A DNA stretch of 64,000 bases from Patiria pectinifera (lineage: Eukaryota > Echinodermata > Asteroidea > Valvatida > Asterinidae), in NCBI GenBank assembly GCA_029964075.1, contig CM057135.1:28385366-28449365 (forward strand), in the 5' to 3' direction. Made by a program: the position numbers and the translations under genes. Positions 11,036 through 63,289 of the stretch are shown here, one piece after another. The notes beneath the pieces were generated by a model that saw only the letters and a list, made by a program, of their open reading frames with translations, did not search any database and had not been told where the DNA came from. Numbering within the stretch: position 1 is the stretch's first letter; the number at the start of each line of letters is the position of its first letter.

Positions 11036-14000
11036 CTAGGGACCGTCCCGCCTTTGTTTCTTCGTTGGTGGGGGCTGTGGCTCCACCTCCACCTCTCTGG
11101 TGGGCTCCGCTGGTTGAGGGTCGACACTAAAACCTGAAACCTAAAATTTGCACAAAAGGGGAGAAACATCAAAGTGAAATGGTCAAAAATGATGGGGAAA
11201 TAGGGAATCAATACAAAACTGAAGCGACGTTTGAAATTCATTCCTGCATCCAAAACAGTCAAAACAAACTTTTGTTTGCAATTATATGCTTAAAGAATCA
11301 TCATTATAGTTCCCTGGATGCGATATTTTTCCTGATTCAGTGAGATTTTACTGCATTATTGTTAATATTTTTTTCAAAATAGTTATCAAAAAAGAAGAAA
11401 AAGAGTACTGGGCAGGTTTTTATGAAACAAACTATTATATCAAGTATAGTGAATGATAAACCTCTCTATGCCTTCACATGGTAAAATTTTTATGGAAATT
11501 TGTAAAAAAAAAATAAAAATTTGTGGAAAGGCTATAGATGCACCAAAATAATCATTGCATGTGCAAGGGTATGTTGCGCATCTTCTCAGTCCTTCACTAT
11601 ATTTAGTTGTCCAATTATAAAACCTACTGCGGTATTTATGTCTGGAAATTCCTGTTTGACTAATCGCGCGTCTGCCATCAGAGTCATCTGTTGGAATGGT
11701 TAACTCCCAACCGATCCTGGTCCGCAACATTTCAGGCATTTTTTATGTGGCATCTTAAAGGTATGTCTGGACATTTATTTTTAAGTCTAGTGCGGTAGAG
11801 ATAAATAAGGAGGACTTTAACCTGACACGGGAAAAATCTTCAAACGATTTTTGGCGCGTAAACATGATAAGATCGTCCAGAATGTCATCAATCATTGACA
11901 GCATTTTTTTATGGTTTGTTTTACAAAGTTAAAGATGTGTTCCCTGTTCTAAACTCGAAAAATAGATTTGTTTTATCAATTTCTATTTTCCTAGATTTTG
12001 AATGAGACAAACGAAAAAATCAAACAACGTTTACTAGTTGTTGAATTATTTCTTCATAAGATTGACTTTGCGTCGGGTGATGTGAATTAATATTAGATTT
12101 TGCCTTTCACCGATGTATAAACACTGAATACTCAGTGCGAATTATTCTTCACAAAATTTGAATTGGCTGCGCAGGGCGGGTTCATTTGTGAGAAGAGGGT
12201 TGCAGATGCCAAAACTTGCAATAAAGTATTGTTTTTGTTCATTTAAAACAAAACATTCAAATTGAAAATTCATTAGGAGAAAAAAAATTAAAAATTTGGG
12301 GAAAAACAAAAAAACAACACAACTCTCCTGATTAAAAGATTAAAGCACATGGCATAATCTTGAATGAAGTTATGGAAAAGACATGTAATTGCATTTTAAA
12401 AACAAAATTTCTTATTTAATGATTCACTTCATTTTACCTTAGTGCCCAACGTTGTTTATTATGCGATCCTTTTTTTGTTTAATTACCATCCTTGAAAACA
12501 TTTCACCCTTTGAGGGTAACAAAAATCCATGTCTCGGGTAACATGGACCATTTTTTATTCCTCCATGCATCGACACACACACTAGACTCACCTTGGGCTC
12601 CACAAGTTTCATTCGCAGCTTTTGGTGCTGGATGTTGGAGGTCTCTGCACTGATCTGAACTCTGACCTTGTCAAAACCTCGCAGGGTGACGTCCCCTGCT
12701 GACTGAGTGCATTCCTGAAAAAAATGACAAAAATATAAGTGTTGTGGAGAAACCTCCAAATTCAAGTTCGGTGCAGAGTTGTTTGAACTTTCTCATTCTG
12801 GAAACAAAAATCTTGAACTTGAAGGGAAATTAAATAAGCTGCATTTTACAGGCATGAGATTTTTCAGACTTGAGTCTGGTATCAGACTTTTTGAATCTGA
12901 GAATAAGATATCAGTAAAGAAAAAAATGCATTTTAACCAGATCACGTTGGATGACGTGTATACACGCAAAGGTTTTGCGGTATTCGTAACGGATGGCGGA
13001 TAAACAAGCAACGAGTGAGGCTGGAAATATCTGTCTGCGACCCGCTCGCAGCAAGCGAGGCCGGAAATATCAGGGTGTGCTACCCGCAGATGACGGCCTG
13101 AACCCGTCTGGCATCGTGAAAACAATCTCGTGCCTGGGTCCGGTCGATGTCAAAATAATCACTGCGTTAAGACCTTTCATTTTCAGACTTTTTAAAATCG
13201 ACAGTCTCAATCAGCATCTTAGAAGAGATGAAAAAGATAGAACTGGCATATAGGAAGTGAGATTTGGAAATCTCAAGGAACTCCTACAAACATACAAAGT
13301 TATCTTCATCTATTTTAAAAAAACAACCAAAACTTTAAAGCTGCTAAAGTTTGCAGGGCTAAAGAATTAATTGTTTTATATTCCATGACATTATTGCTTA
13401 ATGTTGCCCTGGGTCATTGGAGAAAAAAGTCCTTTCTATGTGCCAAGAGCAAGAAAAAACATGCACACACAATTCAAGGAAATAAATAATAGTCAAAGTA
13501 AAAATGGACAACAATTTAATTGCTCTTTTCCCGCTGGTGTATCAAGGGGGAGGGGGTATTCAGGAAATGTTTGCATTTTTTGTCGTTGACAGATCTCCAT
13601 GAAGATATTAATAATAGATCCGTAAGGAAATTACCAGAAATTCAGACAGTTTCAACAATCATGCCTGCATATTTGATCACTATAATGATACACAGTTCCT
13701 CAGTAAACATAATTTCATTATGATGGTTTTTAATATTTATCACAACGGAACTCAATTCACAAAGGCTTTTCAAAAACTGCAAGAGAAACATTGAACAGAC
13801 AATGTCATGTATACAGAATAAGCACCCATTGCCAAAGGCTTAGGGAAATAATGTAAACAAAACAAGCAGGAGACAGATGGTATGGGGGGAAAAAAGCAAA
13901 TTTCTACAATAAAAGGCAGACACTAAGGAAAATCATGTAATGCTTCGCTTGGATGCACAATATTATTGCTTGACTTATTTCCGAGACACCACGGACTAAA

Positions 14001-17000
14001 TGATGTGTCGGGGACCACCATCTGCCATTAAATGTCATATGACAGCCTCTGCATTGAGCAAAACTGAAAAAAATATCTGGGACACGGTTTTCTTGCCAGC
14101 TAGGGAAAAAACCTGGTTCCCCTGTATTTAATCAGAATTGTAGGTTCAGCCTCATTAACCGTTCCCTGTTAAATTCACATGATTGCACTCAATAACTGCA
14201 CTGCCAAAGTAAACTTTGGGGAAATAAAATGAATATACCTAATACAGTTGAAACTGCTATCTTGCTTTCGTTAAGGTAACCCAGCTAAATTTGAGCAAGG
14301 ATGATGCATTGTACAATATAACCATTTATTGCATTATGTTTCAGACCCAAACCCTACTGAATCCACTAATATTCAATAATGTGATATTTTTTGCTGGATA
14401 TATTGATCTGTGTAGAATCCAACAAATTGTGTTCTAGCCGTTGGATTCTGATGGATTCAGCTGTCTTCACTTCTATCTTTGTAAGATTCTGTTAGATTCA
14501 GCCTGTGCCAGGAAAATACTGGGGTAGGTTTCAAGGACAAAACTGCGAGGGAAACTCAAGGGGAACAGAGGGGGAAAAGGAAGGAAAATCCCCAATTTTA
14601 CAAACAAACAATTTGTTCCCTGAAAATGGATTTTGCCAGGGCGCAAATTATCGGACTGTTGAAACTCTATAAACTAAAAAGATTAAGGATTGTTTGTCAA
14701 TTTTTTTAATAATAAGAATCAGAAATACACAAGGAAGTAAAAAGCCAGTGATGATGTGGCATTCTACGGTCACTGCTTTCCACTCGAGCATGAAGCAAGC
14801 TGTACAATAAAAAGTATGTTTCATTCAGATATAATAAAACAGGTGAATTCTATGGACCCTGGCGGTAAAAATATGGGGATTTTTCCCCGCTGAGAATACA
14901 GAGCAGTGACAATAAAAGAGTTTGTCATCCAATTATTAAGCATAGCATGTTATTGAATAATTCTGTTTACGTAAGGTTGTTTTGGACATTGAAAAAAAAA
15001 AATCCACTACCTTTTTTGGAAGTTGTCCTCAACGAATTTCTCATTTAAAAAAAAAAAAATCTTCCAGCTGAAGTTAAAAACGTGACGAACTTTTTGGGGG
15101 GAGTGTGGCCTACTAGTGGTTAGGGTTTGTGACTCATGATCAGAGGGTCAGGGGTTCGAATCCAGCCGCTGGCCATATGTTGTGTCCTTGGGCAAGCCAC
15201 TTCATCCCCACTTGCCTCTCTCCACCCAGGAGTATAAATGGGTACTGGCATTAGTTGGGGAGTAACCTGCAATGGACTGGCAGCCCGTCCAGGGGGAATA
15301 GAAATATTCTCAGACTTTTCATGCTACTGAAACCGGAGATAAACGCCGGCCTGATGGGCCACATTGGCTCATGACAGTCTTTACTTTATTTTTACTTTTT
15401 TACTTACCTCACTGAATGTATAGTTCTTTTTAAAACATTTCCGGCTGAGCTTTAATTTTTTTTTTTTTTGAGCAGATACATTTTGGGCCCTTTGGAATAA
15501 ACTTCTGAAACGGTGACATTTGAATGAAGAGCTGCCATTCCAAGAAGGGAACGGAAAGTGCACTTTCATTACGCACTCAAGTTCATATTACAAATGCACT
15601 ATCACGCTGGCCCAGGGCAATGGAAACAATTCCTCTGGTTTCCTCCCGAGTTTAAAGATGGAATATCCGCCCTGCTGAAAGATAAATTACACTTAATGGA
15701 TTTCTCCCTGGTAACCACTTAAAAAGGAAACAAGCATCTTAGATCAAAAAGCCCTTACTACACATATTCTGCAGTCTATTTGGTTTCTACATTGTGAATA
15801 ACGCATGCAGACTCTGGGAACTAGGATGGATACAATTCAAAATTGAAAATTTATTTCATCTGTATTTTTTTTATCATGGGATGATTTTTTTGGTTTGATG
15901 GCTCATAAGAAAACTCACAACTTAGATAAATGCTAAAAAGAAAAAAATAGTTTTCATTTTGAAAATTATTGTTGGCGGAGTTGCCTGTCCAAAAGGCACA
16001 GGTAGTTTATCTCTATTTCCAAAGAGTGAAGCCAGACAGAGACCAGACGATTTAGAATGAAAATCACTCAAATTTTGATTAAAAATTCTCTGAAAAAAAA
16101 TCTGTGGAAAATCGACTGAAAACTCAATCTAATGGAATGAATGAATTTTAATCTTTGACTTAAATATCTGGTCCCTAGGTTTCAACTGTGGGAGTGAGTG
16201 TTCACTCGAATGAAGGGAATTTTCACTCATTCGGTAAAAAGGAGTCCGCTGTTTGTGCTCAGAAACAAAATTTTGAATGCTCCTATTACAGTACATCTTA
16301 ATTGCAGGCAGCATAAATAGACTCTCTGAAATATTACTGTTTATTTACACTGTTAATCTTTGATCAAGATAAATAAATTGCCACAAGTTAATTTAACTGA
16401 AATCTGTCAAAGGTAAAATCTAGATAATGTGGGACAATTTAAACAAACGCTGGTGAGTCATCACAGCTACACATGCAAGAATTTTATGTTAAACACTGAT
16501 AGAAAATAAACACCAGACCGACTAGGGATGTGCCTTGGCACCGGGTACCCGAATACCCGACCGCTGTCAGGAACCGGTTCCAGATTATGGGATCGAGTAC
16601 CCTAAGTCGTAACCAACCTTACAAATAACTCAGTAACTTCTCAGACAATGAAAAAGAAAGGTTTTGAATGCTATTTGTGGGGAATTTTCAAAAAGAAGAC
16701 CAGGCTACATGCATGGAACGCCAAAACAGATGTATGTGTATTACGCACGACAGATGACGTTGGAGAAAGTTGCAGTTTACATTGTAAAGCTGTAAAAACT
16801 CTTCAGACAATCTTTAAGGACTAGAGTTTCTGATAATAGAGGGAATTTACCACGTTGCTGGGTTGTTTTTTCCCCTCTAGAGTTGGGATACTTTAATAGG
16901 GTATCCAGTTTCCATACTACCACTATAAGTACACCACTAAGACTAACTAACAGATTACAAAAAAAAGTGCATCTGGCTTTCATAAATATACCTAAATAAC

Positions 17001-20000
17001 GATCAAAGCAAGTAAGAGAAAACCTTCCTTTCCTACAAAAAAAATTGGCCATTATATCACTGGATAATAAGAACCAAGTCTCTTAAATGTGGTCCAGACA
17101 TGTCCAGCAAAGCAAGAAGCAGGAAGTCATTTAATCAAGAGAACAAAATAAAGACAATGAATTGAGTGCCACGGTCAGTTCACAGTCTCATTTATTCCTA
17201 TCAGGACAATTTGTCAAACTAGACACCTTGTTAAATGGCACAGGCCTGATGTGTTGGTAATCAGGGGTCCTCTCATGCATTTAATGGTACCCTGGACAGT
17301 ACTGACTGTGATGTGGCATATCAATATAAGGACAAAAATGGGAACTCATTATGCGGGAAGTTCCTTCTTTTTCTTTTAGCTGGAGGAAGGAAGTTACCTT
17401 CTTTGGAACTAGAGTTATTGGAGGAGCAAACTGAAGGACTTTTTCATTAAATTTTCCATCATTCTATACCTCGAAACTGCCAATATTAAAACACCCCCCT
17501 CCCCTGATTAATCTAACTGAAGGTTTTGGGGATTTTCTATTTTTTGTTTAGGAGGGAAGAGAAGCCTACCACTGTTTCTTAACACAGGGATTCAAGCTCT
17601 TTTTGAAAGTGAAAAGAACTTTGAAAAAGTGGGGAATTTTAGAGGCTTTAGAAAAGTTCGTAGCAAGAAAATGGGGAGATCAGGTCAAGATACATGAAAT
17701 TACAGGAGGATCAGATAATAGTGATGGAATTTAAGATGTTCAGTTTGAAATCTATTTTTTGATTGAATTATTTCCCCGAAGGGAGTGGGCCGAATCCCGG
17801 ATGTAGTGCTATACCGGGCCAACCCGTGGCCGGGACGAGGCAAGCCCCTATTCCACGGCCCAGATCCAAAAATCAGTTTAATATACTGGCTGCTCGATGA
17901 GCAGCGTTTCAGATATTAAGCTGAAAAGAACAGATACTACACATGATCTTAGCCAAAAGGCCGAGAAGCGATACCGAACAGGAATTTCGGACGCCTAGAC
18001 TATGCCGGGACCGTTCACAGCAATCACAGTGCGGCAAATTCAACTGCCGTTTTGTGTCTCTTTCCAATAAGCCAGCCCCTTCAAAAATTGTACAACAGTT
18101 ACCTGACCAAATTCTAACTCGAAGCACTTTCCACCTTTAAAAATAAGCATTTCTCTTTCCATTTAAAAGCATTTTTTAGAGGAACTTGGCAAAAATGAAT
18201 ATGCAGTTGTAAAAAGTGAATATGCAGCGGCTGGAGGTCAGGGCGTTTGCGCAAAACGCAATCTGCATTGATAACGGAACAAAGGTCATAGTACCAGCTC
18301 TATGCTCAGTGTGTGCACACAGCTCAGCGCCACACACACAGAGGTTTCAGGGTCGCTAACGAAGCCTTTCAGGAAATGCAAATCCAAAATCCATACACAA
18401 GCCCAGGCATGGACAATCTGTGTACAATGTACATGTACATGTACAAGCATGGTGCAAGTGACTTCACAATGTGTGCAGACACATTACACCCCATGACTTT
18501 ATTTACTAACGAATCATCTCTGCACAGCCAAAACACAATCTGTAAAAGTTCATTCATGTGACTTCTCTTTACACTGTAACTTGTCAGACCCTCAGGCTGC
18601 ATAAGTAGACATGAACAGTTGACAGCTGACTTCATATACAGCTGTACATGTACATCATGAAGTGGTGTAAAATAAACACTGCTACATGTACATGTATGTT
18701 AACACAGACTTGTACACAAACATCATCTAGCCATTCCACAAACATAAGTACATGTGCATGCTGGCTACATGCAAACTACTGTCTTTCTTTCTACCTATCA
18801 AAAGTTTCCCCATAGTTTTCCAAAAGAGACCTGTCTGAGAAAACAAATATTTTGTGCATGTACATGTACATGTACATGTACATGTATGTGCAATGTGCAT
18901 GTCTGAAGTCCATCACTGCAATGAAGCACTAGCCCTAATGTCCTAGCCATTACTTTTGGATAAAGAACTGAGTACTACCGAATACTATGAGTGTTGGGCA
19001 CAATATGCTGAAATGTTTCATACTACAGTTTACTACTACATGTAGTCTTATTCCTCCATGGTAGAACTAGTATTGCACCTTTAGGTGAGGTTAATCCATA
19101 ACACCTCTCAGTTTTAGAAGGAAATCAACAACTTCAACTCAAAATGTAACTTTTGTTTTAAAAACTTCAGGCTGTTAGCTGGACTATATGTGTTGAGGTT
19201 AAATGAGGTGATCCTGGCCATTTTTAGCTCAGTAATGACAGAACTCCCGAGAGAGTCCTTGGGCAGAGTGGCTATATTTGTGGCACACTTGATTCAATCT
19301 GCCAGCACTATGACCCCCACAGAAGGTGTACCATTTCACTTCCTTGTTTGTGTGGTCAGTTTCCAAGTTGGAAACCGCAAAACATGAATGGAACTGTGGA
19401 GACATTGGAAAACTTTCCAGTGAAGTTTGGACACAATGAAGTACAATTTCATTAAAATCCTAATACTGCATGAATGACATCAGCAACTTGTATGGTACCT
19501 GTCAGGATTTCAGTACAAATTGCAGCATGCTACATAATCATTGAAGACTATAGTGAGTTGGGCCCGAAAGTCCCAGTCAGGATTATTTTACTCAATGACT
19601 CGGGGAGACAGTCAGTCAGTAAGTCAGTCATTGACTCAAACAGTAGGTTGGCCTATAAATGAAGACCCCAAAACAAGAGTACACAGATGGGTCCTTCTAC
19701 AAAAAAGTTGGGTCCACTTTTTTTTCTGTCCCTGTTACATCTGACTTCTATGATTTTATAATTCTGATGTTCTCCTTAATAACCCTCCTGCTATTTAAGA
19801 GGTCACAAATGGTCAAAATTACCTTCCACTCCCCCTAGCATACTGTTAACAAACCAATGGGGGTCTTGACCAATATTGACCCAAGTAATAACATGGCTCA
19901 GAATGCATGTTTTCATGGGAGGGTTTTTAATGCAGTCTAGTGATTACGAATATCAAAGAACCTACCAAACAAAATAAAACACAGTTTAAAGTCATACTTA

Positions 20001-20268
20001 ATGATACTTGAATGGCAAATAACAAAGTATCAAAGTAACAGGGGCAGGACAAATGTCACACTTTGGATCCTAGATTTACAGAACGACCCGTATTTTTGAA
20101 TTGTCCTACCTCTTCGTTGTACTTGAAGAGTCCATCTTTGTCCTTGTCCGGTCCTCTCAGGAATAGGGTTCCCTCAAATCCGTACTTGGGAATGAAGACC
20201 TGCACAGCATTCTTACGGACGAAGATGATGAAGCCGTCCTCATCCAGTATCTTGTCCTTCAGGAAGAT
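11036..20268 (-). CDS. DIS3 exons 20-22: S1-type domain and C-terminal tail
   Basis: Exons: 20110-20268, 12592-12714, 11036-11140. Exon 20 encodes [20 protein letters not shown], exon 21 [20 protein letters not shown], and exon 22 VSGFSVDPQ through a Pro/Glu stretch to a basic KKQRRDGP end. For exon 22 the acceptor TTTTAG|GTTTCAGG was chosen over a second TTTTAG seven bases on because only it keeps phase 0 and yields VEPKVSGFSV, like human VEPQIPGISI. Repeat B1 abuts exon 20, its right end 21 bp from the donor. Confidence 0.93.
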
Positions 20269-23200
20269 CTGAAGCAGATGGGAAGAATTGAAATTTGTTT
20301 TCACAAAGAGACCGAAACTGATACAGGACCCTGGAAAGGCAGGAAATTGGGATATTTGTCTTCGCCCTTGACCAATATAATTTAGTGAACATTATTTTTT
20401 CAAAGCTGTCTGAGAACTTGTTAAGTTGTGACCAAAAAATGCTTACTTAGGTGGGAATCGAACCCACAACCTCCTGTGAAAAATAGCCCTGGTTTTAAGA
20501 AAAGGTAATGACAGTAATAAAGGCAAGGATATTTTAGTGGTTCTGAAAAGGGGTTGCAGGTACCACGGGAAGAGCACTGTGAAATGTTTCAATTAAATCA
20601 CAAAATCTTTCAATCAGAATTATTTAGGACATGTTGGGAAATTTTTTTCAGTGGGGTATGTAAGTTTTTTAAAACATCTACCAAATTCACCATGAACTCA
20701 GCTTGCCCATGCACTCTTGTTTTACTATACTCCCGAGGACAATGCTTTGTGTTTTCCTTTGTCTCTGTAATATAACACTCTCCCATACACTAAGCACACA
20801 AACCTTCTCAAGGACCGTTTTGAATAAAAGACCCAACGCCCCAGGACTGAAAGGATCTGTTGTTCTCCCTTTGTGTGTCGGTCCTCGGGGGTTATGTAGA
20901 ACAATACACACATTCCAACCATACACAGAAAAAAAGTATTTACACCTTGGAAAATTAGAATTTTATTACTGGTAGTACATTTAAAATAAGCTGGGATTAT
21001 TGGATTATTGTGATGGGATACCTGTTTATGCACATGGTCTTTCCATTTTTATTTCTGTGCCATATGTTAAATGAATCTCATTTGTTAAACTGTTTTTCAT
21101 TTCCTCGATACCAACAGGATTTCCTGAACTCCAAAAGAATATGAGCCATCAAAAGTAGGAAAGCACTGCAATTAAGGCTTTCTATGAACACCGAGAAAGT
21201 ACAAAGTGTAGAGAAGTTCCCTTGCTCTTTGGTTCAAGTTACCTGCTTGCAATGTGAGAGTTGTCCTTGAAATAACAACCCAGGCCCTTGTCAACATTAC
21301 ACGGCTATGACTGGCCATCACACATGTGCGTGTCTATGGATAGTGGCTTCCACTGCTTCCATACACGCATGCATTACTGCTAGCCGTAGCCAGAGTGATT
21401 CGAACACAGCCACACATTGTCTATCTGGAGACTCTATTATTTGTTGTGTCAGTGGGAGGTTTGGAAGGCTTGTAGGGTCTTTGAGGTCAATCCCTGTCTA
21501 GCTTGGGCTGGGCTGGGGCAGGGTGATAAGAAATACTGCAAATAGGATTAGCATTTAACAGGGCCATCAGGGACTGCATTATTTGTGTTGTTAAAGTCTT
21601 GAGTAGATGGGGGCATGGTGTGATATTCAGAAATGCATTTTAGTGTACAAATGCGTGTCCGGACTGAACTGCTCAAGTTGTCAGTTGGAGGATCCCTACT
21701 GGGCCTTCAGTTGAAACTGTTTTTCAAAAGTTTTGCATTCAGAATTTCAGATTTTAGTGTTTCACTATAGTTACAAATTTGATTTTTTTTTAAATTTAAT
21801 AATTTTGTTCTACATTAAAAATGCCTTTCATACTGCATTTGGTTAGATGTAATTAAGACCCTATATGATTAAATATTTGAAAATTTGGACTGACGACAAA
21901 TGCAATTTCAATAGTGCAACATACTTTAGGCGAAGGCTTTACATGTAATTGCATGCACATTTTCTCAATTTTTACTACCATTTTAATAAAAATGGAAAGT
22001 TTTCTTTATTTCCGAGTGACCTTAACCCTAACCTGACCTAAAGCTACGAAATACTACTGAGTAGTAACCTGTAGTATGCATTTCTTTCCATACAAGTGTG
22101 CACAACACATGAAGTATTCTGTGGTATTTGGTCCTTGACCCACAAAGAGCCCTTAGGACTTAGGGTTAAGAAAGTTTATAACTACGCAACTATAAAAATG
22201 CATGAGCCCTGGTCATCGCATATTTAGGCTAGATAGTTTTAATCTGTCAAGTTCACTAATAATTCTTGTACACTGCAGTTGAATATTCTATAAAAATTGG
22301 CATGTGTGTTATACCTTTTCTATGCTGTACTATGCTGTAGGCGGTCACTGCATATTTCTGCTCCATATTTGTTCCTTAATTCTGATCAAACTTTTAATCA
22401 AAATATATGCAACTTTTTTACCACACCAAATATGGAGGCAACAAAATCTAAAGGCTAAACAAGGAAACGTAGGTGAATATAAGTGTGTAGTGACTCACAC
22501 TTCCAAATATGGTTACTGTCAACGACAATGACATCATAAAGAAAGGCAAATAGCCAAACTTGAAAGCTAGTAATAAAAGAACCACTTGTAGTTGTACACA
22601 AAAGCGCTTTGAAATACCAGTAGATAAGGAAAAATGCCTGGTTGAAAAAGCAAAGGGCAAGCAAGGTCAAACCCCGGCCCCTAGCCCTGTGCAACTATGG
22701 TAGTAGCAAAGGCCATGGAGCTTTTTATAATGCAAATATGTTGTCAGAGAATGTCTCACGGACATACCCTTGTGCACGGCTAATGCAATTGAAATGTCTA
22801 GACCAATGTTCAACCTTTATGGTGGGTAGCATTCGGGGAGGAACTTTCTGGAAAGACAATGACAAGCACATTGGCATGTGGGTTCGAGTTCTGTGCATAA
22901 AGAATTGCATGGATACAGAGAGTTGCTGAATTAAACGCTCACACACATATACATGAATAGTGCCTGGACTTTTGTCCTGCAGGGATCCACAGTAAAATTG
23001 AGCAGGGAATAAATTCTGCAGTGAGCATTCGAAAAGTGACTGGAGCGAAGTTAATAAAGCGATTCAACCTTGCATGAGTGAGGACGTGGAATGGGGAAAA
23101 ATAACAAATTTTGCAATCTTTTATACATGTACTGACCTGCTGAACACAAAAACTAATAGGACTTGTGTAAACCATGGAACTGACCTACATGTACATGTAT

Positions 23201-26200
23201 GTGGCCTTGGTTCTAGCTTTTTTCCTCCTTGAATTAAGGCCAAAGGCTGTTGAGGTATCAGAGGGGGAACTTTCAAATATTCCATGTTCAGAGGGAGAAT
23301 TTTAAAGGGCCAATTTTTAATCCTTGAATTGAAATGCAACTTTGGATCCGATTTAACCTTAATTTCAATTTTCATTTTGCCATTTTTTAAGGGCATTTTA
23401 TACCTTTTTGGTTTGTATGTTAATACGAAATTCCATATTCGTGAGCAAAAGTGTGATGTCATTTCAGGCAGAAACCTCAATGCCATAGCTATTCTAGCGC
23501 CAAAATTTGCCAGAATTTTGGATATCTTGCTTTCGCAATTTTTTTTTTCTTTGGTAATTCATTCGTTGTTGTTTTGATACATGATAGCATGGAGGTAGCC
23601 TCCATGATGGCAGTAAGCCAATGAGCAAAGTTTTTTCACAAATGTTTTTAATGAGCAAATTTTGGGTTCACAATTTGAACAGAAAACCCCAAAAGCGAAA
23701 AGTGTCTTCCTTAATTGACATCACAGCAACAGCGTCCTCATTTGTCAGGAAAAGCATGGCCAATTTCAAATGTTTTTAAAAAGTGCCCTTCTCCATAAAA
23801 TTAACCCCAAAAAAGGGGTGTCAAATAGATTTCATACATTTTAAGAGTAAAAAGTTGCACAAAATATGTTCCCAAGTAAGATCCATGTCATGGGCCTTCT
23901 GAAGTTATTTCATGTTCAGAAAAAAAAATCTGATCTCGTATTGGAATGATCTATTCCTGTCGATAAGGGGTAAAGTATTCAACTTCAAACAAAATCTAAT
24001 GGAGTGCTTTTGTCTAAGAAACCATGTGGAATATGCAATGCAGCATGTAATATAAAGATAGAAAAATGTACATCTAAAGATTATTGCCATGCAACATGAG
24101 TAAAAAAAAACTACATGTAGTCTTATAGGATGCATTATTGTGATCTATTGTACATGTAACGTAATTAAGGCCATGCAGTGTTTTGGTTAATTAAAGATAT
24201 ATGTGGTACAATGCAATGTAACTTTAGATGCATGGTACCATGGTACCCAACCTATACCCCTTGCTCAATTATGCACGTGCAACATCGATATCTGAGGTGT
24301 CTACTCTACTCCAGTGATCTGAAGTGTCAAGAATATCGGTGCAGTGAACTTTCAAAAGAACCTGGTCTGGAACTCGCCAGGGGCTGTCTGTGATTGGTTA
24401 ATGACTGTCTGGGAATAAAAATAAATCTATTTATAGATTGTATGTCTTCACCCAACGCAGCCTATAAAAGAACGCACGGCATCCACCCAATCAAATAGGA
24501 GATACAGTTCATTACCAGCACAAGTAGGAAACTATAAAAAAAAAGTTGGCAGACTGGTCTCTTATTTCAATGATTAAAATAGCACACATGTATGTATCTG
24601 GGACAAAGGCCAACTGGGGTCATTCCACAATGACCTGTCTCATTTGAATATGAATTCAGAATTCCGGCAGTCTGGAGTCTGTGTAAGTGCTTATAGTATT
24701 TGTACATGTATCGTGACCTCGCCTTTTTCATTGTTGTGTTTTTCGGTATGCTACTGGGTCCACCATTCTATGCCTTATACGTTGTGTTGAGTTTGTTTGA
24801 TGTAGGCATTGATGGGAGAGGTATCGATGTTTGATGTCGGAGCAAGTTTTCAAGAGCGTACTCAAAAGAATACCCCAAAAAGGAGCCGCAAAAGACGCTT
24901 TCAGGGCCAAAAGATTATGGACTCCAGTTATTTGTTTGCACTTTGTACTCGTCAAATGTCAAATCTCAAACGTTAACCAAAAAATAGTCTGCTTTAACTC
25001 TAAACTCACAACCCAATTTTTTCATTGTCCTGTAAACTGAAGCCATTTCCAACAAATATTCCTTAAGCCATTACAAATAGTCCCTCTTTTGCCACTGCAA
25101 AAAAGTTTTCGTTTCAGTTTTAGTTTCAATGTGAGTGCCTCCATGGATAGCGAGTTGGTTATGAGCTCGCAAACTTTTGAACTCCCCCTTACAATGGGTA
25201 GTAACTACATAGATGTAAGCAAATCTTGGGCTTTCAAAGTTGCCTTTCTTAGACCATAGGGCAAGGAAATACCATGAAAATACCTTCCTCTAAATGAAGT
25301 CAAGAGTGCAATGAGAGACCACTCCACAAAGTTAAAGAACAATTTTTATGTGCAACAGTCATTTAAAAAGTGGGAGAGTGAACAGACTTTACAACATGAC
25401 AAGGGTTATTTTGACAATTTTTTGACAGGTAACATTTCATGAACCTGAGGGGGCGGAGTGGAGGCGGATCTATTTTTGACTTAGAACTTCTAGACCGTGA
25501 TTTATTAGCTCAGAGATCAATAGATTAGTAGATCGGAGAACAGTGACCTGAATTCCCTCCGAGTGACAATGCTGAAAGTGTTTTGTAAAAAAATATAAAA
25601 ATTAAAGGGTTTGGGTTCTTTTTTTTAGAGAAATGGATATTTGCTACAAATATGCTCCAGTGAAATTAAACCCAGCACATTCCAACTGCACATTCAGTGC
25701 ACTATTGGAGCAGGGCAGTAATTATGAACATGTAGTTTCCTGGTTTTGAAAGTTCTTGTGGTCGTGTAATTCCATCTGTCCAGAAGGTATTGGAATTGGT
25801 CCTGGTTTATCCGATTTCACATCCGTCTTCCTGGCACTAAGCCAACAAACGGGAACCAGAAACGAGGAAATGGACAGAGCTGCAAACAAACAGATAAGCT
25901 ATCAGGAAAGACTGGGCTTCCTTGAACGGGATACCAGTGATGTGATAGTCTATCCCAGTGACACCGGTCCCTCCTGATCAAAATCTTTTGCGGTTTAAAT
26001 CAGCCTATGAGGATTTGCGAAACCTCGGTTTGGATTCCAGCTGTGGCTTCAGACTCTAGATTTATGAGTTTACTGATTTGAGGGACTTTTTGTTGTTGTA
26101 AATATTGCTTTTTCTACTTCAAGAATATCAAATCATATAATAATATATTAGTAATTTGTTAAAGAGTATTCTAATGTTGTTTGAGCATGGAAGGCTTCCA

Positions 26201-29200
26201 AATGAATCTGGAGCCAGAGACAAAGTCAATGCTGGAGTCAAAGCCTAAGTTTCGTAAACGTCTGACATTCATAACCTGGTTGTTCTTATTTGCATGTAGT
26301 GTGAACATATGGACAATAATACGTGTTATACTTAGAAATTAATTGTGTTTTAGAGTCCAACTGCATAGCATTAAGATTTGTTTGTATGATCACCATATCT
26401 ACATGTAAATTAACGGTGTGGAACCAATTAATACATCTCCAACGTTCCATGATGTTCATATACAGTGTAGCTTGTCAGGCAAAGACCCAATAGACCGTTA
26501 TCATGTTGTCAGGGTTGGCTGATTTAAATCACGTTGATTTAAATCACTGATTTAAATCGCGATTTAAATCAAATGATTTTTTTTATAAAAAATCACTGAT
26601 TTAAATCACTTTTTTGTAAAAAATCTTATTTTTGGCAAAATCAATTGATTGAGGGTCATTTTAATCATTTAAATCAACTGATTCCACTTAATTACAAAGT
26701 GTAAGATGTTGTTAACACATTCAAACACCCCTACTTCATCACCATCGACTCAATTTAGGTTTTGCATAATTACACAAAATTGTTGTTTTGATTAAGTCAA
26801 GAGCTTAAAAGTTTATGTTCAAGGTTTTTAATTTTAAGGAGAGCACATTCACGTTTGCCTTAATCATTCTTTGATCTGTTTACATTAATATTGTGAATCA
26901 ATTGTGCTGGTGTAGGCTGACATGAACCATCAAAAGGTGTATTAAAAGTCCCAATTGATAGTCTTATTCCTAACATTTCTCCCTAACGTTTAAAACCTTT
27001 TAAAGGTGCAAGGCCTGATTTCTGTTCTCCACCTTGGACTGATTCAACATGCCCATGGAGAACTGTTGTATTTTTTTTGTATACCATGTACAGGTGCCAT
27101 AAATCAAGTTTTTATTCATATCCACACACAACGTATCTCAGCTGTATCAATCAAGCAATGCACCTTTAAAGTGTCTTCAGTATTAATGTACCATTGAACC
27201 ATGTTGTAGACTACATGTAGAAGAAATTAAGTGATTTTTTTAAATCACTGATTCAATACAATTTTTTTCAAAAGCATTTATCAATTTATTGAGTTTTGTG
27301 GATGATGGGTATTATAGGAACCTGTAAACTCCTTTGTGATGGGTGTGAGGGTGCATGGGGAGATTTAGACACATGTTTAGACATATCAATATTTTAAAAG
27401 TTAAAAAAATATAAAAAAATCTGATTTAAATTTAAAAAAAATCAGATTTAAATCGAATAAATCGGATTTTTTTGGATTTTTTTTTTAAAAATCAAAAAAA
27501 TCGCCAACCCTGGATGCCATCTTGATTTTTTTCCCATTCAAATCAACATTACCATAGCGAGGCTGAAAGATGAAAAAATGGTCTGGTTCCTTTTTGCACC
27601 AAAAACATTATCATTGAGTACTGTTAATTGAATACAGGGAACATGACCGAAATGGTTGCAGCATGATTGATAAAGGTCCATAGACTGATTCATTTAGCCC
27701 CTCCCACTCTGAATGTGGGCAACAAGTTCATAATAATGCGGTGCTCATATAGCACTTTATACCACAGGTCTCAAAGCGCTTTACGATTATTACCCCTGTC
27801 CATCAGGTCATGAGACCAGTTTTTGCAGCAGCTCGAGATCAGCGCATTCTGGTCTCTACCGTCACAGGTACCCATTTATACACCTGGGTGGAGAGAGGCA
27901 ATTGTAGTAAAGTGTCTTGCCCAAGAACACAAGCATCAGCACATTCTAGTCTCTACCGTCACAGGTACCCATTTATACACCTGGGTGGAGAGAGGCAATT
28001 GTAGTAAAGTGTCTTGTCCAAGAACACAAGCATCAGCACATTCTAGTCTCTACCTTCACAGGTGCCCATTTATACACCTGGGTGGAGCGAGGCAGTTGCA
28101 GTAAAGTGTCTTGCCCAAGAACACGAGCATCATGTCAGGGTTTGACCCATGTGCACCAAGGCATGTGAGTCGAACACCTTAACCATTGGACCACAGTGCT
28201 CCACATACACGCTTCTTCAATGCCACAATGTATGTTCTAGTCACGTGCATCGTACACGCGTGCACGCATGTTGGATATATATTTGGGCTGCGACTAGTTT
28301 TTGGTCAAAAAACACCATCGGGCGGGTTTAGGGAATCGGTCTATTTGTGGACCTGCCAGAGAGAAAATATTGTCAATCAAATTTTTGTACTAAGCAGATT
28401 ATTCACCAAAAACTAGTCACAAGCACATTGCATTTTGGCTGTTGATCTCTTATTTTGCCAAGTAAATATTTTTGTGCTTTGCTAAGAACAACTTCTGTGC
28501 TTAAATGACCTAAATTTGCAATTTCCTCACTTAACATAACAGCTCAACAAATACGGATATGCTCTCTGTTGAACTTGAAGTGTAATTTGTAAGGTATTCA
28601 AATGTAGTCGCAAGTGCTACACACATACAAAATTGCTTTTCGGTTGTTAATCTCTTATTCTGCCGACATTTTTGGGAGGCTAAATGCAACTTCTGTGCTT
28701 AAAGGGAAGATACAACATTTGCAAACATCAAAAAACGAAACGATCAAATTATCACGAAATATCTTACTGGATTGTTAGGGAATGACAGCCTAAATCATCC
28801 TTTAAAGTTGCGGCTCCTGGTGTGCTGACATTTTCAAGAAAAAGTGTATCTTTCCAACGCTGGTCGGCCGACCAGCGTTGGAGAAAACTGGCTTTTTTTC
28901 AAAAAGTGCTCCTAATTTTTCATATTTAGTTCGTCTGCGTTTTCTTTGCAATTCATTACAAACCTGTGAAAACTACAAGCCTGCTAGACTGATTCTCATG
29001 ATCTTAAAATTCCCCGAAGTCTATAAATTGCTCCGGTTCATCTTAAGTGGCGTCGGGGAACCAGACCACGAGAACATGATTGGTTTTCTTGGTTTTTCCA
29101 CCATCTACGAACCCAAAACGTGAAACAAGTCAGTGTAACAATATTTGCTATAACGTACTAATCCTCCAAATCCATTTATTTCTGAAAAGTGCAGCAAAAG

Positions 29201-32200
29201 CAAATGTTGTACTTTGCCTTTAAATGAACTAAATTTGCAATTTCCTCACTTAACATCCCAGCTCAACAAATATGGATATAATGCTTTCTGTTGAATTTGA
29301 AGTCTTATTTGTAAGGTATTCAAATGTAGTCACAAGCGCTACACACATACAAAATTGCTTTTTGGTTGTTAATCTCTTATTTTGCCGAACATTTTTGGGA
29401 GGCTAAATGCAACTTCTGTGCTTAAATGCTCAATGAAATTCAAGACCTGAGACCCAAATTTCCATTTTCTTACAAACATCCCGCTCAACTAATACCAATA
29501 AATTGCTTTCTGTTGATTTTCATTTTCAATGTAAATGAACACCTATAAATCCGCTCAAGTATATCTCATTTTCCTTATAAATTGCATTTTGTAATCCATT
29601 CCGTGGGTGGGAAGGGGGGGGGGGGGGAAGGTTGCGAAAAGTAATGGCATTTCAATGTGTGCTTCGTGCATTGTGGCTGAACTCCTCATCAGATAGTTGA
29701 ATGGCCGACATGAAACATTATCTCCTTGAAATGCGAACGGTATCTCAATATTTAAAGGGCAGTCGCAATAAATATTGATGTGATTCCTGCGGTGGGGATC
29801 TTTTCAACAGAAACAGTGAGACCAAACATTCCACTGCTGTATTTGGAAAATCTAGGAATCAAAGCGACTCAGACAAAATCAAAACGAGATTTCCATTTTG
29901 AAGTTGAGGACTATGGGCTTCGTGCACAAGTACCCCCTCAACGGTAGGAAAGGGAGAGTTGGAGGAGACCACTAGGAGAGACATTCAAACGCATTCCTGA
30001 TGACGTCTGACGCTCGCGTGAAGATGCTATGGCTTTGTGCATATATATTCGGAATAAGCATGAGCCGTGCGTACTTCGCGCCATACGTGCGTGAACCAGT
30101 CCGCGCACGTGGTGTGTCCTATCCACAGGGCTCTCAAAAGCGGTCTTAAGCGCCCTCTCTTGTTTGCGCACGGAGTCCATATGCCATGGAATTACTGTAA
30201 AATGGAACTTGCAATGCAGTCAGCTGAAATGTAAACATGCAAATGTATAGAGGGAGCAAGACACTAGTGCAAACTGCACATCATACTCAAGCTTTCTGTG
30301 ATCTCAATTATCTTGAGAAGTTGGCTTCACCTCAAGTCCAGGAAAAGGAATATTTTTCCTCTGGGAGTCAAATAGCTAGAGGGGTACAATGGGGGGTAAG
30401 GTGTCTGAACGGAAATACTCATATCCTGGATCTGAAGAGTCCTGTCACCATGAATTGGTTCATTGTAGGCAAACGAGACCACTTAGGGACCTTCTCGTGT
30501 GAGCAGTAGGGATGCAGGCAGACGTTGGTTCAATATTCTCTGACCCAGAAAAGATGCTCAACTTTCACGCAGTGTAAACGGAAATAGCTAAATGAGACAA
30601 ACTGGCAACAAAGTTACTTTCAGTTATGTTGTATATCCAATGAATCAACGTACGATGCATGTCATGATCAGCTTTCGCTAAGTGAGAAGGAAATTGCTCC
30701 AAATTGAGATAAACAAGCAGAAATATGACTTTCAGTTACATATACATGTTATCATTTCACAATGCATGTCACATTCAAAACCGCAGGGCACTGTGGTCAC
30801 CAAGGAAAGTCTTTTACATGTGGGTTATTTTATAAATTTGGGGTCTAATTTTTCCTGTCCAGCCCTGTTACTTCTATGATTTTAAAATTCCGGATGCACT
30901 CCTCAAAAACCTTTCTTTTGTTTAATCAGTCACAGACAGTCAAAAAATTCAATCCTGTTCCCTTGCCATGCCTTTTACACAGGCTAGTCACCAACAGTCA
31001 GATCATATTTCAACAAGCACTATGAAAGTCAAATTCCATCAACAGACAAAAGCAGCTGACTGGAAGAAGGCACAGCTGGCTTATCAAGTTCATACAGTCA
31101 AAGCATATCAGGTTTGATAAAAATCACAGCCAGTCAATCCTTCTTTATCAAGGCAGGGTTAAGAACAGTCACTTGATTTATTTTGACTGCCGGGCTGGCC
31201 TTGTTGAAACTGCCAGCCCGAGAGGGGGGGTTAATGAATACATTCATTCTCCGAGAGTGATTATGAATATCAAACTACCTACCCAACAAATAAATAAATC
31301 CTTTGAAGTCATTCTTAATGATACTTGAATGACAAATTACAAAGTTCAGAGGTGACAGGGACAGGATAAATGTCACACTTTAACTCTTTGGACCCTAAGT
31401 TTATAGAATGACCAGTGTGATACATGCAGGCTTACCACAGAACAAATTAGGCCCACATTTTGAATTGAGACGGTCTGCGTTTTCAGACGCATTATCTATT
31501 CCAAGATGTGACTCTGCGATGAGTCATATTGGATAGAATGACAAACCGCGAGCGACCTTTATAAATACCAAACGAGCTTGTTAAAAGGCTTGACGTATTG
31601 AATTACTTGATATTCTGGCTCATTAGTTTTGCTGGACATCTAATGTTCCTCATCTGAATTACACACATCGGCACATACCCATACTCCAGAATGACTGGAA
31701 AAAAAGTTGACTATCATAACTTACAGTTGGCCTACATTTTAGGCCAAATAAAAAAAACATGTTTAGCGTCCCGCCTGCTTCCTTTTTGGAGGTTGCCTAC
31801 TTTTCTTTTCTTTTTTTGAAAAAAAAACCCCAAAATGATAAATTTTAAACAGTGACATCATTTTGGCCTCTCTGTCTGTTGCATCTAGCCCATAAAGCTG
31901 GTACATGTGTATGTCATTTTCTGAGTCCAAGTTGCGGCCATTTTAGAAAAAGCTGGCGGCCATCTTGAAAAAATAGCCGGGCTGGTCGTTTTGGAAATGG
32001 GTCGGGTGGCCATTTAAAAAAAAAAAAGGGCCTCCTCCTTCCTTTTTTCCAAAAGGGCAGGATGCTTAACATGTTTTTTTTTTATTTGGCCTTACAGCTA
32101 GGTCAACTATCACATTGACCTGGTTTCTGAGAAATTTGCATGTTTAAGAGGGAAACAATCAAACCCGGATGTACAAAAAAAACAGGGCAAAATCATGTAT

Positions 32201-35200
32201 ATTTTACTTTCCCCTTTACTTTGTATTTTCCATGTAACTTCCCTCCTGCAGCACAAATCACCTGCTTTGCAGCTTCTGTGCATAATTGACAGGTGTTCAT
32301 TTGTTCACAGGGAAAAATTCCAAGTGTTACTGAAATTTAAAAAAAACATACACGTGCAAAATGACGCGATGCTCCTTATTTTAAAATGGGTCAACCATTT
32401 TAATCAAATCAAATGAACTGCCAATTCCAGTTGGGTTGAAAAGGCCTTTTCCAAAAAAAATATACCTCAAACTTGTGAAGAAAACATTGCAAAAGGGGTC
32501 TCGTTAATATGTTGACCGCAGAACATCAGGCCAGGCGTGCACGTGGCATTGATGTATGCCTTTGTGTAGATAGCAGTAACATACTGCGGTAGACATCGCC
32601 AGACATGAGTCACGATTAGGTCATGTGAGAAATATGCACAGACTGAGGGGAACACATGGGGAGTTGTGCAGAACACAGGGAACATTTGTGTAAACAGTCC
32701 CAAGGTGCTTGGCTGGATGGCTTGGCTGGCTGGCTTGGCTGGCTGGGCTGGCTGCTGTTCTCCCTTGTTCATTTAGTACACTCCATTACATCTTGATAAT
32801 CAGTGGTATTGAAAATATCCAGGTGGGGCACAGAATTTGATCAAGGGTTAACACCTTCAAACAGTTTATGAACACAGAATGCACTGCATAAACTTCAGTC
32901 ATTGTGGACTTAGGGTAACGATACATCCTGTACTTTACGAGATGGAATTCATATAAAGTTTAAAACATTTCAAGCTATCTTAGAAGGGTTTTTCTCATTT
33001 CTAATTCTTTCAAGAGCCGACCCAGCAAGCTTGATTGTTTGGTAAAACATTTGAACAAGTATACGTGAAATTGTATTTTCTCATACGGTGGCGGATCCAG
33101 CATTTACGAAAAAGTGGGGGGGGGGGCAAAAAAATGGAGGCGAAACCTGAACACACAAGCATATTTGCTCTTATGAATGTGATTTGAAACAAAAGGGAAA
33201 AAGGACACGACATCCCTCCTTTAAAAAAAATAAATAAATAAAAAATAGGAACGAGGGGTGGGGGGGGGGGGGTTGCAAGCCACACCCTCTTCTGGATCCA
33301 CATAACCATTTATGACTATGCAGTGCTTTAAATATCTGTGAAGGTCAAAACCCAGCATTGAATCTCTGCATTTGTAGAGTATAAAATACCTTACATCAAC
33401 ACCATGGTGGTATAAGTTCTGAATGCACATGGCCTATCATATTCATAGAGAGATATCCCCATCAAGGTTGCATCAACAACACAGTCTAAAAAGTGTTTGT
33501 GCCAACCATGCCAAAAACAATGTCATTTTGTGCATTCAAGTATTTTCTCAGTTTTTTAGGTTATGATATTTGACCCTCAAAAAGAAAATTGGAAAACGTG
33601 TCCTGCAGAATAATTATAGGAAACAAACGGAGAACACAATCGGAATTCATATTAAAACGAGGACAACCTTCATGCCTGGTTTTGAGAATTATACAGAGAA
33701 ATATGATTGATTTATGATAATGTTCAGATTTTTCAAACTTTCATGGCATGCTCAATGCATTTTCTAGCACTAATGCCCTGGATTCCGGCCGCCACTCCCT
33801 GTGCCACAACTATTGACATTTCCTTGTTGTTGGACCATACAGGATCTACACTTTGCCTTCCTGTACAGAGAGGCTGGATCACGCCATGAGGTTACAGCCT
33901 GCAAGGTATGCGGTACGCAATTAGACAATACACCTGTTTTTTCTAGGCATGTGTTCTGCACTGAGAGAGCCTTTAAAAGAGGGATTGTCAAACATGGGCT
34001 TCCGTGCATAGCTACCGGTAGCTATCTTGTTTTGTGTGTGTGCAATGTGCATCATCCTTGAGCAACAAAGAAGTGGCCGAGAGAGGTTTATTTTGAGAAA
34101 CTTTTAGGGTATTGAGGACAGTTGGCACTTTGATGTTTGTGAAGAGAATTCCCATGAATAATGCCGAGGATGAAGCAGGTGAAAGGGGACTTTCTAAATC
34201 AACTCCCTCCTCCCACACACATTCCAAATACCAATTTAAAGACCACTGTCATGATTCTTCAAATCGCAGGAACCTGGAATTTTCAGCCATCACCCCAAAT
34301 CAATCAACATGTTTTCCCCTCAAATGAATCGAAATGCTAACCTTTCTTTACCAAGCAAATATTTTGATCTGTGCTTAGAAAATTTCTGTTCTGAACAACT
34401 CAATTGAATATTTACAAATGATGGGGATATTAACATGCTGTATCGTGCAGCATTTTCCATCAGCCATAACCCATAAAGAAGTGCCATAAAAATGTGCCAA
34501 GCGTGCCATAAATTTCTTTCATATCATTAGGCCTATAGGTTTTTGGCAAACAAAATCACATGAGGAATAAATTGCATGTTTGACCTTGTGCCAGTAAAAA
34601 CAGACAAGTATATGCCATATGGGAACACTGGCCCATGTGCAAAATTGCATGCACATGTGCTGTATTTATTGCCCAATACATTAGAACAAAAACATAGCAG
34701 AGTGGTACCCCCCCCCCTGTCCCTATACCTTATACACACTGTAGACTATTATTACCCAACATATCCCCCCAGATATCTCAAAAGAATTTCTGAGATTCCC
34801 GGAACACAACAACCGACGTATCTACGTACATGTATGTCTGGATGTCTATGGGCTCTTTTCAAGCTCCAGAGTGCATGTGAACCAATCCTGAATGAAGGAC
34901 ACTTATAATCAATATGTCTACTTATATTTGTCTTCCATGGTCATGCAAAATAACAGCCAGCACTAAGCGCCCAAGGACAGCACAGGCAAAATGGCACCGG
35001 ATCCTTTTATTCACAGATGAATGACACATGTACATAACTTATTCTCTACAATGGTCATGGGAATGTACACGCCTATTGCTCTATGGCCAAACAATACTGT
35101 ACAACCATAATGTCTCAATAATGATACTTGTCATACCTCTGTCTTTATACTGTATTTTCATTGGCCCAGGACGATCACCTGACCGGGCGATAAATATGCA

Positions 35201-38200
35201 TGGCACACTCCCGTTGTATATCACATTGTGATATCACATTATAGTGTAGACCGCCCCCGCCCCAGCCCCCAGCGCGCGGGCGCGCTAAACCAGACACTTA
35301 ACTTGTACTTGTACTCACTATGTACATGTATGCACATTTCTCACACATACAGACAATGCATTTCAATGATAGAGTCATAGACAAACTTTCCAGAAACAAT
35401 TCCTAGTTAGTTTTTTTCATTGGAAGCTCGTTAGATTTATCCACATGAACATCATGGGGATGCTGCCAGCATACTGTACAATCTAACTGTATACCATGTA
35501 CATTTGTTTTGTAAATGTACATGTACATGTGTACATGTTATTCAGACTTATTTCTCCATGTTTAGACATACATGCAGAATGCATGCGTGTACCAATGGTG
35601 AAGTCATGGATACATTTCCTGGAAACAATACAATCATAGTTTTTCTTCTTTGAACGCTCATGAGATGCTCCGTAACAGGAGGGCTTTACCTCCTCTGGAT
35701 GTAACCCCCATTTGTACTTATTTAATTTTATCGATTGAATTTATCAACTTCTCATTGTCTTTCGGTTGTACAAATGGAAATAAACAAACAAACAAACAAA
35801 CAACCCCAACAAACAAACAAACAAGGTGCGAGAATATTTAGAAGGGAAATACCCCTTTTTCAGGGCCCCAAGATGCTATGCAAATTACAAACATGTACAC
35901 CTGTTCTGCACTACAAGGAAAAGCTATGAACAAAATATATGTGCGTGTAAATAATACGATTTGATGTTTGTGCAAAACCCTTACCAGGAAGTAAAGTGCA
36001 CACTGTCCACTGTACGTAAATACATCGTGCATGCAAACTGAATGCGAGTAGGACCTTCAGCCTTTTGAATAGCATTCTCATAAAAACTCTAGTGACTATG
36101 TGAGGGCCCAAATTCAATAACATATTTCCATGAATGGAAACAAATGCGAGGGACTAGGCCATTCAATATGGCCAGGTGTGTGTGACATCCAGATCAATAA
36201 ATTCTGCATTATTATTCTATCAGGAGATGTGCATGTACTTGTACAATGTTATGTCTACTTGAATTTGAAACAGAATTAGCTAGCTTGCCAAAATCTGCAT
36301 GAAGCGTTTTTTGGAGAGCAAGTGCGTGGGTGGGCAAGTGTGTGTGGGGAGGGGTGGAGGGGGTGTGTATATGTGGAGGGGGTGTGTGGAGGAGGGGTGG
36401 AGGAGGGGTGGAGGGGGTGTATACACGTATGTGGAGGGGGTGTATACACGTATGTGGAGGGGGTATATGGGAGGAGGGGTGTATTGGAGGAGGGAATGTA
36501 CGGGAGGAGGGGGTGTATGTGTGGAGGGGTACGGTGGGGGGGGGGGTTCAGTTGGGGATGGTCTAATTTGGGGTAAACCCCGATGTAAATTGCCAATCAA
36601 AACCTTATTACAGACTGAATGATTTTCACCAAAATATTCTAATCAAGCATGACTAAAACTTCTCATCAATAACCTCCAGTTCTGTTGAGGAGCAAAAATT
36701 TACAGTGATACAAAAACAGAGAGTAATTCACAGACTCTGTAATCTTAAGATTTTTTTAAAGGAAAGGACGGTTCTTGTTAATTTTTATGAAAAGGCTTGC
36801 AGTTTTGTTTCTCAACTGTGGCTTGTGAAAAGCTCAACAAACTATTTATCTTAATTACAACAAACTATTAATCTTAGTTTGAGTAAAAGTGATGGCGTTT
36901 TTAAGAATTAAGATGAAATATAATTTTTGCAGTCACCTGGAAGTATTGAGTGTTTGAAAATATAATCTTGAATTTGGCCATTTTTTAAAGTAATTCTTTC
37001 AACAGTCCTGAATCCTTCAATTTCAATACGATTTTGCATACCCCCTAGGGAGTTAGGGTTAACCCTAACCATCCTGACCCTTCAAAATCCAACTGCATGT
37101 TTTGTTTGATTCTGTTGGAGTGAGGACTGCCTGCTAAACTGAATATGCTTTACATGGGGTCAGGCATACCACCGTAATCAGAGTCCAACAGTTTGGGTGT
37201 TGAGTTTATGGGTTGGATTTTGCAAGAGTGAGGAAGGGTTCCTAGTATTTCACTTAAGGGATTAGGGTTAATAATTCATGTCAGAACAGAATGGTGGCAA
37301 AAGCCTACATCATCAATCAAACTAACTGAAAGAGTAATTTGTTGATATCCTGTATTCTAAACGAAACAAGGATGAGCTGCTAAAATAACTACAATGTATT
37401 TGTCTTCCTTGTTTTGTTTTCTTTTCTGGGAGTTTCGGTGTATAAACACCCTATAACAATTGATTCCACTGTTTGCCAGATAAAATAGATTATCATTACA
37501 ACAAATTCACAGAAACGCAATTCAAGTTGTTTTGTTGATCCAAAGAAGGACACATTTTTTTTGTCTTAAGAAATCCCTGAGAAATAAATTGTACTGTAAA
37601 CAGATGTACGTGGAAAAAGGTTGTTGAAGGCAGTGACATGTCCACACAGTGTGAGTTCCCAAGGCTGGCTTGGACCCTACCAATAACATAAGGAATGTCT
37701 AAAGAACAATATGCCACACCCACGCTGTAAAAATGTACTCACTATCAGTATCGGTTGCTGAGTAAATAGAGGCTTGGCGTCAAGCTCCATAAATTCCACT
37801 GCCAGTTCTCATGAATATACTGCTCTAACAATATGCTGTCAAGTTTTGAGCGAGTTAAAACAACCAAAAAACCAAAGAGTGCCGACTGGCAAATCATATT
37901 GTTAATGACGCGAAGGTTAAAAAGCAACCGTTGAATGTTTTCAATAATTTATCTCCATTTGTCAATACACTGTTCGTGGCCTAGGTTAGGAACAATGAAT
38001 CACAAGGCTGTGGTCTTAATTGCTTAAAATGCCTGAAAAATTCTAGGTTTTTTTTCCTGTTCTTTGCCTTTCTCGTAAACAATTTGAAAATCCCTAAACA
38101 GCAACTAATATTCTACTGTCAACATATGCTGCAAGAGTATAGTTAAATCAACCCGTTACAGAGTCTAGTGAATTTTTATGATTTTATGACGCTGGCAACG

Positions 38201-62200: not shown

Positions 62201-63119
62201 CCATCTTTCTTTCAAGAAACATACCTTCTCCCATTTGCTCCTTGCCCAGATTATAGCAGGCGTCCATCTTGACCAAGTCCACGCCCCATTCAGCATAGGT
62301 CTGAGCATCTATGTCAATGTGGCCCCAAATGCCAGGGTACTTCTGGCAGGTGTAAAGGCCCATGGATTGGTACAGTCCGAACTTCAGCCCCAGTGAATGG
62401 ATCTGTTGTACAAAGGGGGCAAAAAGAGTTTCGAGAAATGACAAGAATGACATCTTTAAAAGCAATAACGGAGCGGAGGCACATTTTCCTGCTTGCGACA
62501 CTTGTCTCATGCTGCACCTAGAATGCAAATACAGTTCATCTTTTTTCTTCAAAATAATAAACTAAATGGTCGGCAGATGTCCAAGTTTCACCATTATTTT
62601 AACCCTCTGAATAAGATCTCAGAAAATTAAAGACAGACATTTCAGACGAAGCTACTTGAATTCTTTAAACACTCACAGTGAGTGGTTGATAATGTACCTT
62701 AATCAACAATATATCACTTTCGTGAAAGAAAAAAAATTACTGGAATGTCACCAGTCTCTGTTTAAGTTTTAAGCAAGACGTTTGGAAGAATAAATGACTT
62801 TTGCTTCTATATCATGGAGGTACGGCGCTAATTCTGTACATACAGCACAGAAGTCAAGTCTGTGAAACGGGATGAACAATATCGAGTTTTCCCCGATAAA
62901 TTTCCAAAAGTTGGGGCATAGCAACCACAAAGTCAGTAACATACATAGTTAGCTAGATTCTTCAGCCCGCTAGGGAACCTCTTAGGGTCTGGTTGGAGTC
63001 TTCCCTGGGCATCCCGCGCAGTAGACATCCAGCAGTCGTCCATGCAGACGTACTCATAACCCGCCTCCTTGTAGCCCTCGGTAGCTATGACCTTTGCCAT
63101 CTCTGCATACAGACGCTCA
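59206..63119 (-). CDS. GH27 alpha-galactosidase / alpha-N-acetylgalactosaminidase-like enzyme, 3' six exons (partial)
   Basis: Lysosomal-type glycoside hydrolase that removes terminal alpha-galactose or alpha-GalNAc from glycoconjugates. Exons: 62945-63119, 62225-62402, 61724-61803, 60722-60883, 59767-59964, 59206-59511, joining in frame to the TAG at 59206-59208 (about 365 residues). Visible motifs: YVCMDDCW substrate-binding loop, [12 protein letters not shown] with the catalytic nucleophile Asp, [10 protein letters not shown] specificity loop, [10 protein letters not shown] with the acid/base Asp, [10 protein letters not shown], and [12 protein letters not shown]. The specificity loop has the Glu typical of alpha-galactosidase, while the C-terminal part (FFSRATDMP) is closer to NAGA, so substrate choice is uncertain. 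The signal peptide and first conserved segment are missing; they must lie beyond 64000 because 63120-64000 is repeats. No break is seen in the six exons. Confidence 0.92.
60141..60245. repeat. GGGGC-rich minisatellite in GH27 intron
   Basis: Plus-strand units of GGGGCGGGGCGGGGCGGGACT. The transcribed (minus) strand is C-rich. Many G-runs of four with single-base loops give strong G-quadruplex potential on the template strand. The 72-codon proline-rich ORF is a translation of it. Confidence 0.85.
61311..61553. mobile_element. TTAA-flanked MITE family C copy 2
   Basis: 243 bp, flanked exactly by TTAA (61307-61310 and 61554-61557). Ends CCAGTTTGCGC and GCGCGAACTGG are inverted. Homologous to 12937-13166. 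Lies in a GH27 intron. Confidence 0.82.
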
Positions 63120-63289
63120 CTGGATAGCGAGAAAATAATTTGCATTTGAATTGAAGTTCCGATTTTTCCGTATTTAAACGATAATGTACAATGTTGGACA
63201 AAGAAATTGACTGGAGCAGATGTCGATTTAAGTCGTCTGGTTTCTAATCAAGAGACAAGCTATTCAAATGACCTGAGACAAAGGCATCC

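Follow-up and report, generated by a model that had tools for sequence, protein, structure and literature searches.

A probable U2 snRNA gene within a long DIS3 intron of the sea star Patiria pectinifera

Overlap between small RNA genes and larger ones is a familiar arrangement; one survey in mammals reported that roughly half of the ncRNA loci it examined lie within introns of other genes (PMC5967550). Human RNU2-2, inside the 5′ UTR annotated for WDR74, is described as a functional, disease-linked U2 copy that is expressed as a unit of its own (PMC8921233; PMC13083258). Among carriers of RNU2-2 variants, seven of the eight outliers for RNU2-2 expression were flagged for WDR74 as well, which the authors of that study call an artefact (PMC13083258). 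Human RNU4ATAC is another snRNA gene reported to overlap a protein-coding gene, CLASP1 (PMC13400782), and mammalian copies of U1 and U3 are reported inside introns of TEX14, where the authors speculate on retro-insertion (PMC5967550).

The DIS3–U2 arrangement that we describe here is a further example, found in a window of 64,000 nucleotides (the whole stretch of P. pectinifera DNA analysed). Like RNU2-2, it is a U2 copy overlapping a protein-coding gene. RNU2-2, however, overlaps the 5′ end of WDR74, whereas the predicted U2 of the window occupies an internal intron towards the 3′ end of DIS3, an exosome nuclease gene. RNU4ATAC is a minor-spliceosome RNA, and the likeness to its locus is the overlap with a protein-coding gene. 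The TEX14 copies share with the present locus the placement of a U-RNA inside an intron of a protein-coding gene, but no marks of retro-insertion were found at the window U2. Among the matches listed from open-licence literature on DIS3–U2 and on snRNA genes that are nested or intronic, titles and abstract openings contained no report of this arrangement.

The first-pass annotation had described a full-length, structurally sound U2 gene at this site and had proposed a covariance search with the Rfam U2 model. That search bears the description out. RF00004 matched positions 17972–17780 on the minus strand with 184.1 bits, against a gathering cut-off of 46 bits, and the match covers the whole model (positions 1–192 of 192). 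The expected mature RNA occupies 17785..17972 (minus strand), a length of approximately 188 nt; its 3′ end was set by comparison with what we take to be the human U2 sequence. The Rfam alignment contains GUAGUA, which we take to be the sequence that pairs with the branch site, and the element AUUUUUGG, presumably a functional Sm site.

Searching with exact patterns for relatives of this U2 returned no contigs from the viral contig set and two from the genome contig set. One of these, contig L001, measures 5.6 kb and is catalogued as a bacterial MAG. Between positions 118 and 4586 it carries divergent U2 and U1 genes together with a 5S rRNA and three histone 3′ stem-loops, and it is therefore probably eukaryotic DNA. 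The other, contig L002, is filed under an uncultured cyanobacterium (Trichormus) and holds the 5′ part of a U2 at 1762–1838, the sequence ending inside the U2; this piece points to probable eukaryotic contamination. The L001 U2 served as a comparison. It scores 172.1 bits with RF00004, so the window U2 at 184.1 bits is not a low scorer.

The window U2 departs from the Rfam consensus at two conserved positions, with U at position 30 and C at position 53, where the L001 U2 has A and U, respectively. Human U2, in the sequence that we assume for it, likewise has A at 30 and U at 53, in agreement with L001. A three-way alignment of the window, L001 and assumed human sequences is free of gaps before stem IIb, and thus at both of these positions. 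The same alignment seems to misplace the gap in stem IIb, and the pair counts that follow were made against the Rfam consensus.

Read in the Rfam register, 43 of the 45 pairs are standard, and 10 have changed on both sides relative to the consensus. Stems I (7/7), IIa (6/6) and IIb (7/7) are completely paired; the two non-standard pairs fall in stem III (12/13) and stem IV (11/12). When the letters at the paired positions were shuffled 10,000 times, the mean was 19.9 standard pairs and the maximum 33. Changes on both sides number one in stem IIa and four in stem IIb. As a single strand, U2 with its 3′ tail folds with a z of −3.48, and none of 200 shuffles was as stable. In the unconstrained minimum-energy fold of U2 and tail, stem IIa does not form and bases 38–44 pair with the 3′ tail.

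The tail of the putative pre-U2 spans 17765..17784 (minus strand) and is predicted to form a short hairpin with a UUCG loop at 17784–17773. It is followed at 17751..17764 (minus strand) by the element AATC-AA-AAAATAGA. The reported consensus of the 3′ box is GTTYN0-3AARRYAGA (PMC5493778). AAAATAGA, at 17758–17751 and 27 nt beyond the expected RNA end, fits the AARRYAGA half exactly, and AATC fits the GTTY half at two of four positions. One half of the 3′ box claimed by the first-pass annotation is matched in full and the other in part; we call the element 3′-box-like. AARRYAGA occurs 21 times on the minus strand of the window and 18 times on the plus strand. The expectation is approximately 0.012 per 40 nt of one strand, so that chance would produce the half match in about 1.2% of 40-nt stretches. 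The element begins approximately 20 nt past the expected RNA end; the human 3′ box is described as lying 'within 19 bases' of the RNA end (PMC3874203).

For the presumed U2 promoter region (17973..18272, minus strand), we scanned positions −300 to −1 on the sense strand for motifs. Within these 300 bp there is no vertebrate-type PSE, an element to be expected near −55. The 17-position consensus specifies 12 positions, of which the best sites miss 5; among 1000 random 300-mers drawn from the minus strand, 28 gave a match that poor. The poor match counts against a vertebrate-like promoter; an invertebrate PSE may differ from the vertebrate consensus. There is no exact octamer in the 300 bp upstream of U2, and an octamer-like sequence with one mismatch, ATGCAGAT, lies at −296. 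A TATA box at −25 of an snRNA gene would mean Pol III. On the sense strand, TATAAA was not found within one mismatch between −163 and −1, and there is no TATA-like hexamer near −25. Two tandem 21-nt repeats (86% repeat match), each with TGCATATTCA, occupy 18186..18227 on the minus strand, that is, −214 to −255. Vertebrate snRNA enhancers sit in this region, and the repeats have what we take to be a likeness to POU sites. We speculate that they could be a possible enhancer.

The host gene was located by tblastn with a human DIS3 sequence as query. On the minus strand, 20 matches at E below 1e-3 were obtained in colinear order between 57106 and 12574, and one of them covers two exons. Read from these matches, DIS3 would have 21 exons in the window, a count in which small exons could be missed; numbering the introns accordingly puts U2 in intron 20, and it lies on the strand of DIS3, both as previously annotated. 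As found, the gene extends from its start codon to the last identified exon (12592..57106, minus strand; tblastn and splice sites). The last identified exon ends in a donor site, and tblastn did not find the terminal exon in the window. Pfam placed RNB and Rrp44_S1 on two of the DIS3 ORFs; it gave no match on the first-exon ORF or on the ORF of the exon after the U2 intron.

The intron that contains U2 (12715..20109, minus strand) measures 7395 nt, with GT-AG splice sites placed between tblastn exons. The exon upstream of it (20110..20271, minus strand, upstream edge approximate) was found by tblastn and contains the start of the S1 domain (Pfam Rrp44_S1, E 3.6e-06). The exon downstream (12592..12714, minus strand) was also found by tblastn. 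Joined, the two give a peptide that matches human RRP44/DIS3 chains at E 3.1e-20, compared with 2.4e-4 for DIS3L. By sequence similarity, the host is DIS3/RRP44, closer to DIS3 than to DIS3L. U2 starts approximately 2.1 kb into the intron and ends approximately 5.07 kb before the next DIS3 exon. Poly(A)-signal hexamers are present in the intron ahead of U2, ATTAAA at 19931 and AATAAA at 18503.

Several other features of the DIS3 region were observed. The longest DIS3 intron found (20272–44657, approximately 24.4 kb, edges approximate) immediately precedes the exon that leads into the U2 intron. At 27838–28132, a 97-bp unit is present in three tandem copies (94% matches) and is possibly SINE-derived. 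Two minisatellites, at 45979–46460 and 50636–51155, lie in different DIS3 introns and have similar 11-bp units, GACTTGTGATG and CAAGTCAATCA (plus strand). A DIS3 intron also holds a tRNA-like sequence (53691–53763, minus strand; Thr, anticodon GGT, 43.4 bits). GGT is an uncommon anticodon among eukaryotic cytosolic Thr tRNAs, and the sequence may therefore be a tRNA-derived repeat. Upstream of DIS3 and on the same strand, pieces of an alpha-galactosidase gene occupy 59206–63247 (minus strand); of the 10 ORFs scanned with Pfam, 3 match Melibiase models.

We consider it probable that the locus is an ordinary, functional U2 gene that sits within a long DIS3 intron and acts as its own transcription unit. 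The near-intact sequence, the pairing expected from the model, the strand, the host gene, the room in the intron and the 3′-box-like motif are all directly observed. By analogy with other animals, polymerase II would initiate at 17972 under an snRNA promoter located immediately 5′, the 3′ box at about 17751–17764 would be the site of Integrator cleavage, and transcription of U2 would stop inside the DIS3 intron. On the same analogy, polymerase that had started at the DIS3 promoter would pass through both U2 and the box, indifferent to the latter, and the U2 sequence in the DIS3 transcript would be removed together with the intron. The human 3′ box is reported to work solely when polymerase has started at an snRNA promoter; transcripts initiated at protein-coding promoters run on to a poly(A) site (PMC5493778). 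Transcription of human U1 and U2 is reported to end approximately 600 bp past the box, or up to 1 kb for U2 in older data (PMC3874203). Termination over 0.6–1 kb would fit before the next DIS3 exon, since some 5.07 kb is available. Several points speak against a working U2: the upstream region without a vertebrate-like PSE or exact octamer, the half-matched 3′ box and its distance from the RNA end, the bases at positions 30 and 53, the two non-standard pairs and the predicted fold without stem IIa.

Two of these points, the upstream region and positions 30 and 53, would equally suit a silent or weakly used U2, either a recent duplicate or a full-length retrocopy that is just beginning to decay and is not the main locus. 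Pseudogenes of snRNAs are reported from every metazoan studied other than teleosts and birds (PMC5493778), which adds to the case for such a copy. The window holds no second U2 match, either at the gathering threshold or in a permissive scan to E 5, and the 1-kb region surrounding U2 has no further copy in it at E up to 1. No target-site duplication beyond chance was detected: the best exact repeat shared by the flanks has 7 nt, a length reached by 15% of 300 shuffles. The repeat search of the window showed no repeat pair bracketing U2. We accordingly rejected a retrocopy or SINE origin, with flank repeats at chance level and no second 1-kb copy in the window. The full length and paired stems of U2 also weigh against a decaying copy, as does the 3′-box-like motif, which lies outside the RNA and which a retrocopy of mature RNA would lack. 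A silent or weakly used copy thus seems unlikely to us, although it keeps an appreciable chance.

Much less probable is that the nested U2 interferes with its host, whether by Integrator- or U2-linked termination that attenuates DIS3 or by open U2 chromatin that slows DIS3 polymerase. The first-pass annotation had proposed that the 3′ box could compete with DIS3 transcription or end it prematurely, and the arrangement invites the idea: the U2 unit lies between DIS3 exons, on the same strand, and would use the same polymerase class. By analogy with human, we do not find this supported, because the human box requires an snRNA promoter, being ignored by polymerase from protein-coding promoters (PMC5493778), and because about 5 kb separates U2 from the next exon. 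In RNU2-2-variant carriers, reads over WDR74 coding exons are reported not to differ from those of controls (PMC13083258), in a case where the U2 lies at the 5′ end of the host and not in an internal intron. The DIS3 intron, too, already contains poly(A)-signal hexamers before U2 is reached (19931 and 18503).

That U2 is instead transcribed with its host and then processed out of the DIS3 intron, in the manner of an intronic snoRNA, agrees with its intronic, same-strand position but is highly improbable, given a 3′-box-like element of a kind that human transcripts from host promoters are reported not to use (PMC5493778) and an abundance of U2 that would presumably demand host transcription far above normal. 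We give equally little credence to a regulatory pair in which U2 transcription tunes DIS3 output and DIS3, acting as a nuclease on 3′ ends of nuclear RNA, limits U2 precursors, a feedback loop between the supply of spliceosomal RNA and RNA decay. In human cells, depletion of DIS3 is reported to raise U1 variants and, when TOE1 is co-depleted, nascent U1 (PMC7328512); nothing here ties these U1 effects to the present locus, and nothing in our analysis shows an effect of U2 and DIS3 on each other. The fact that the host encodes a nuclease may be fortuitous.

The locus has mainly annotation value, in that a probable U2 gene inside DIS3 could be missed by a gene predictor. It also provides a natural test case, in which an snRNA unit shares the strand of its host and lies in an internal intron, for asking whether host polymerase does disregard the 3′ box of an snRNA gene in situ.
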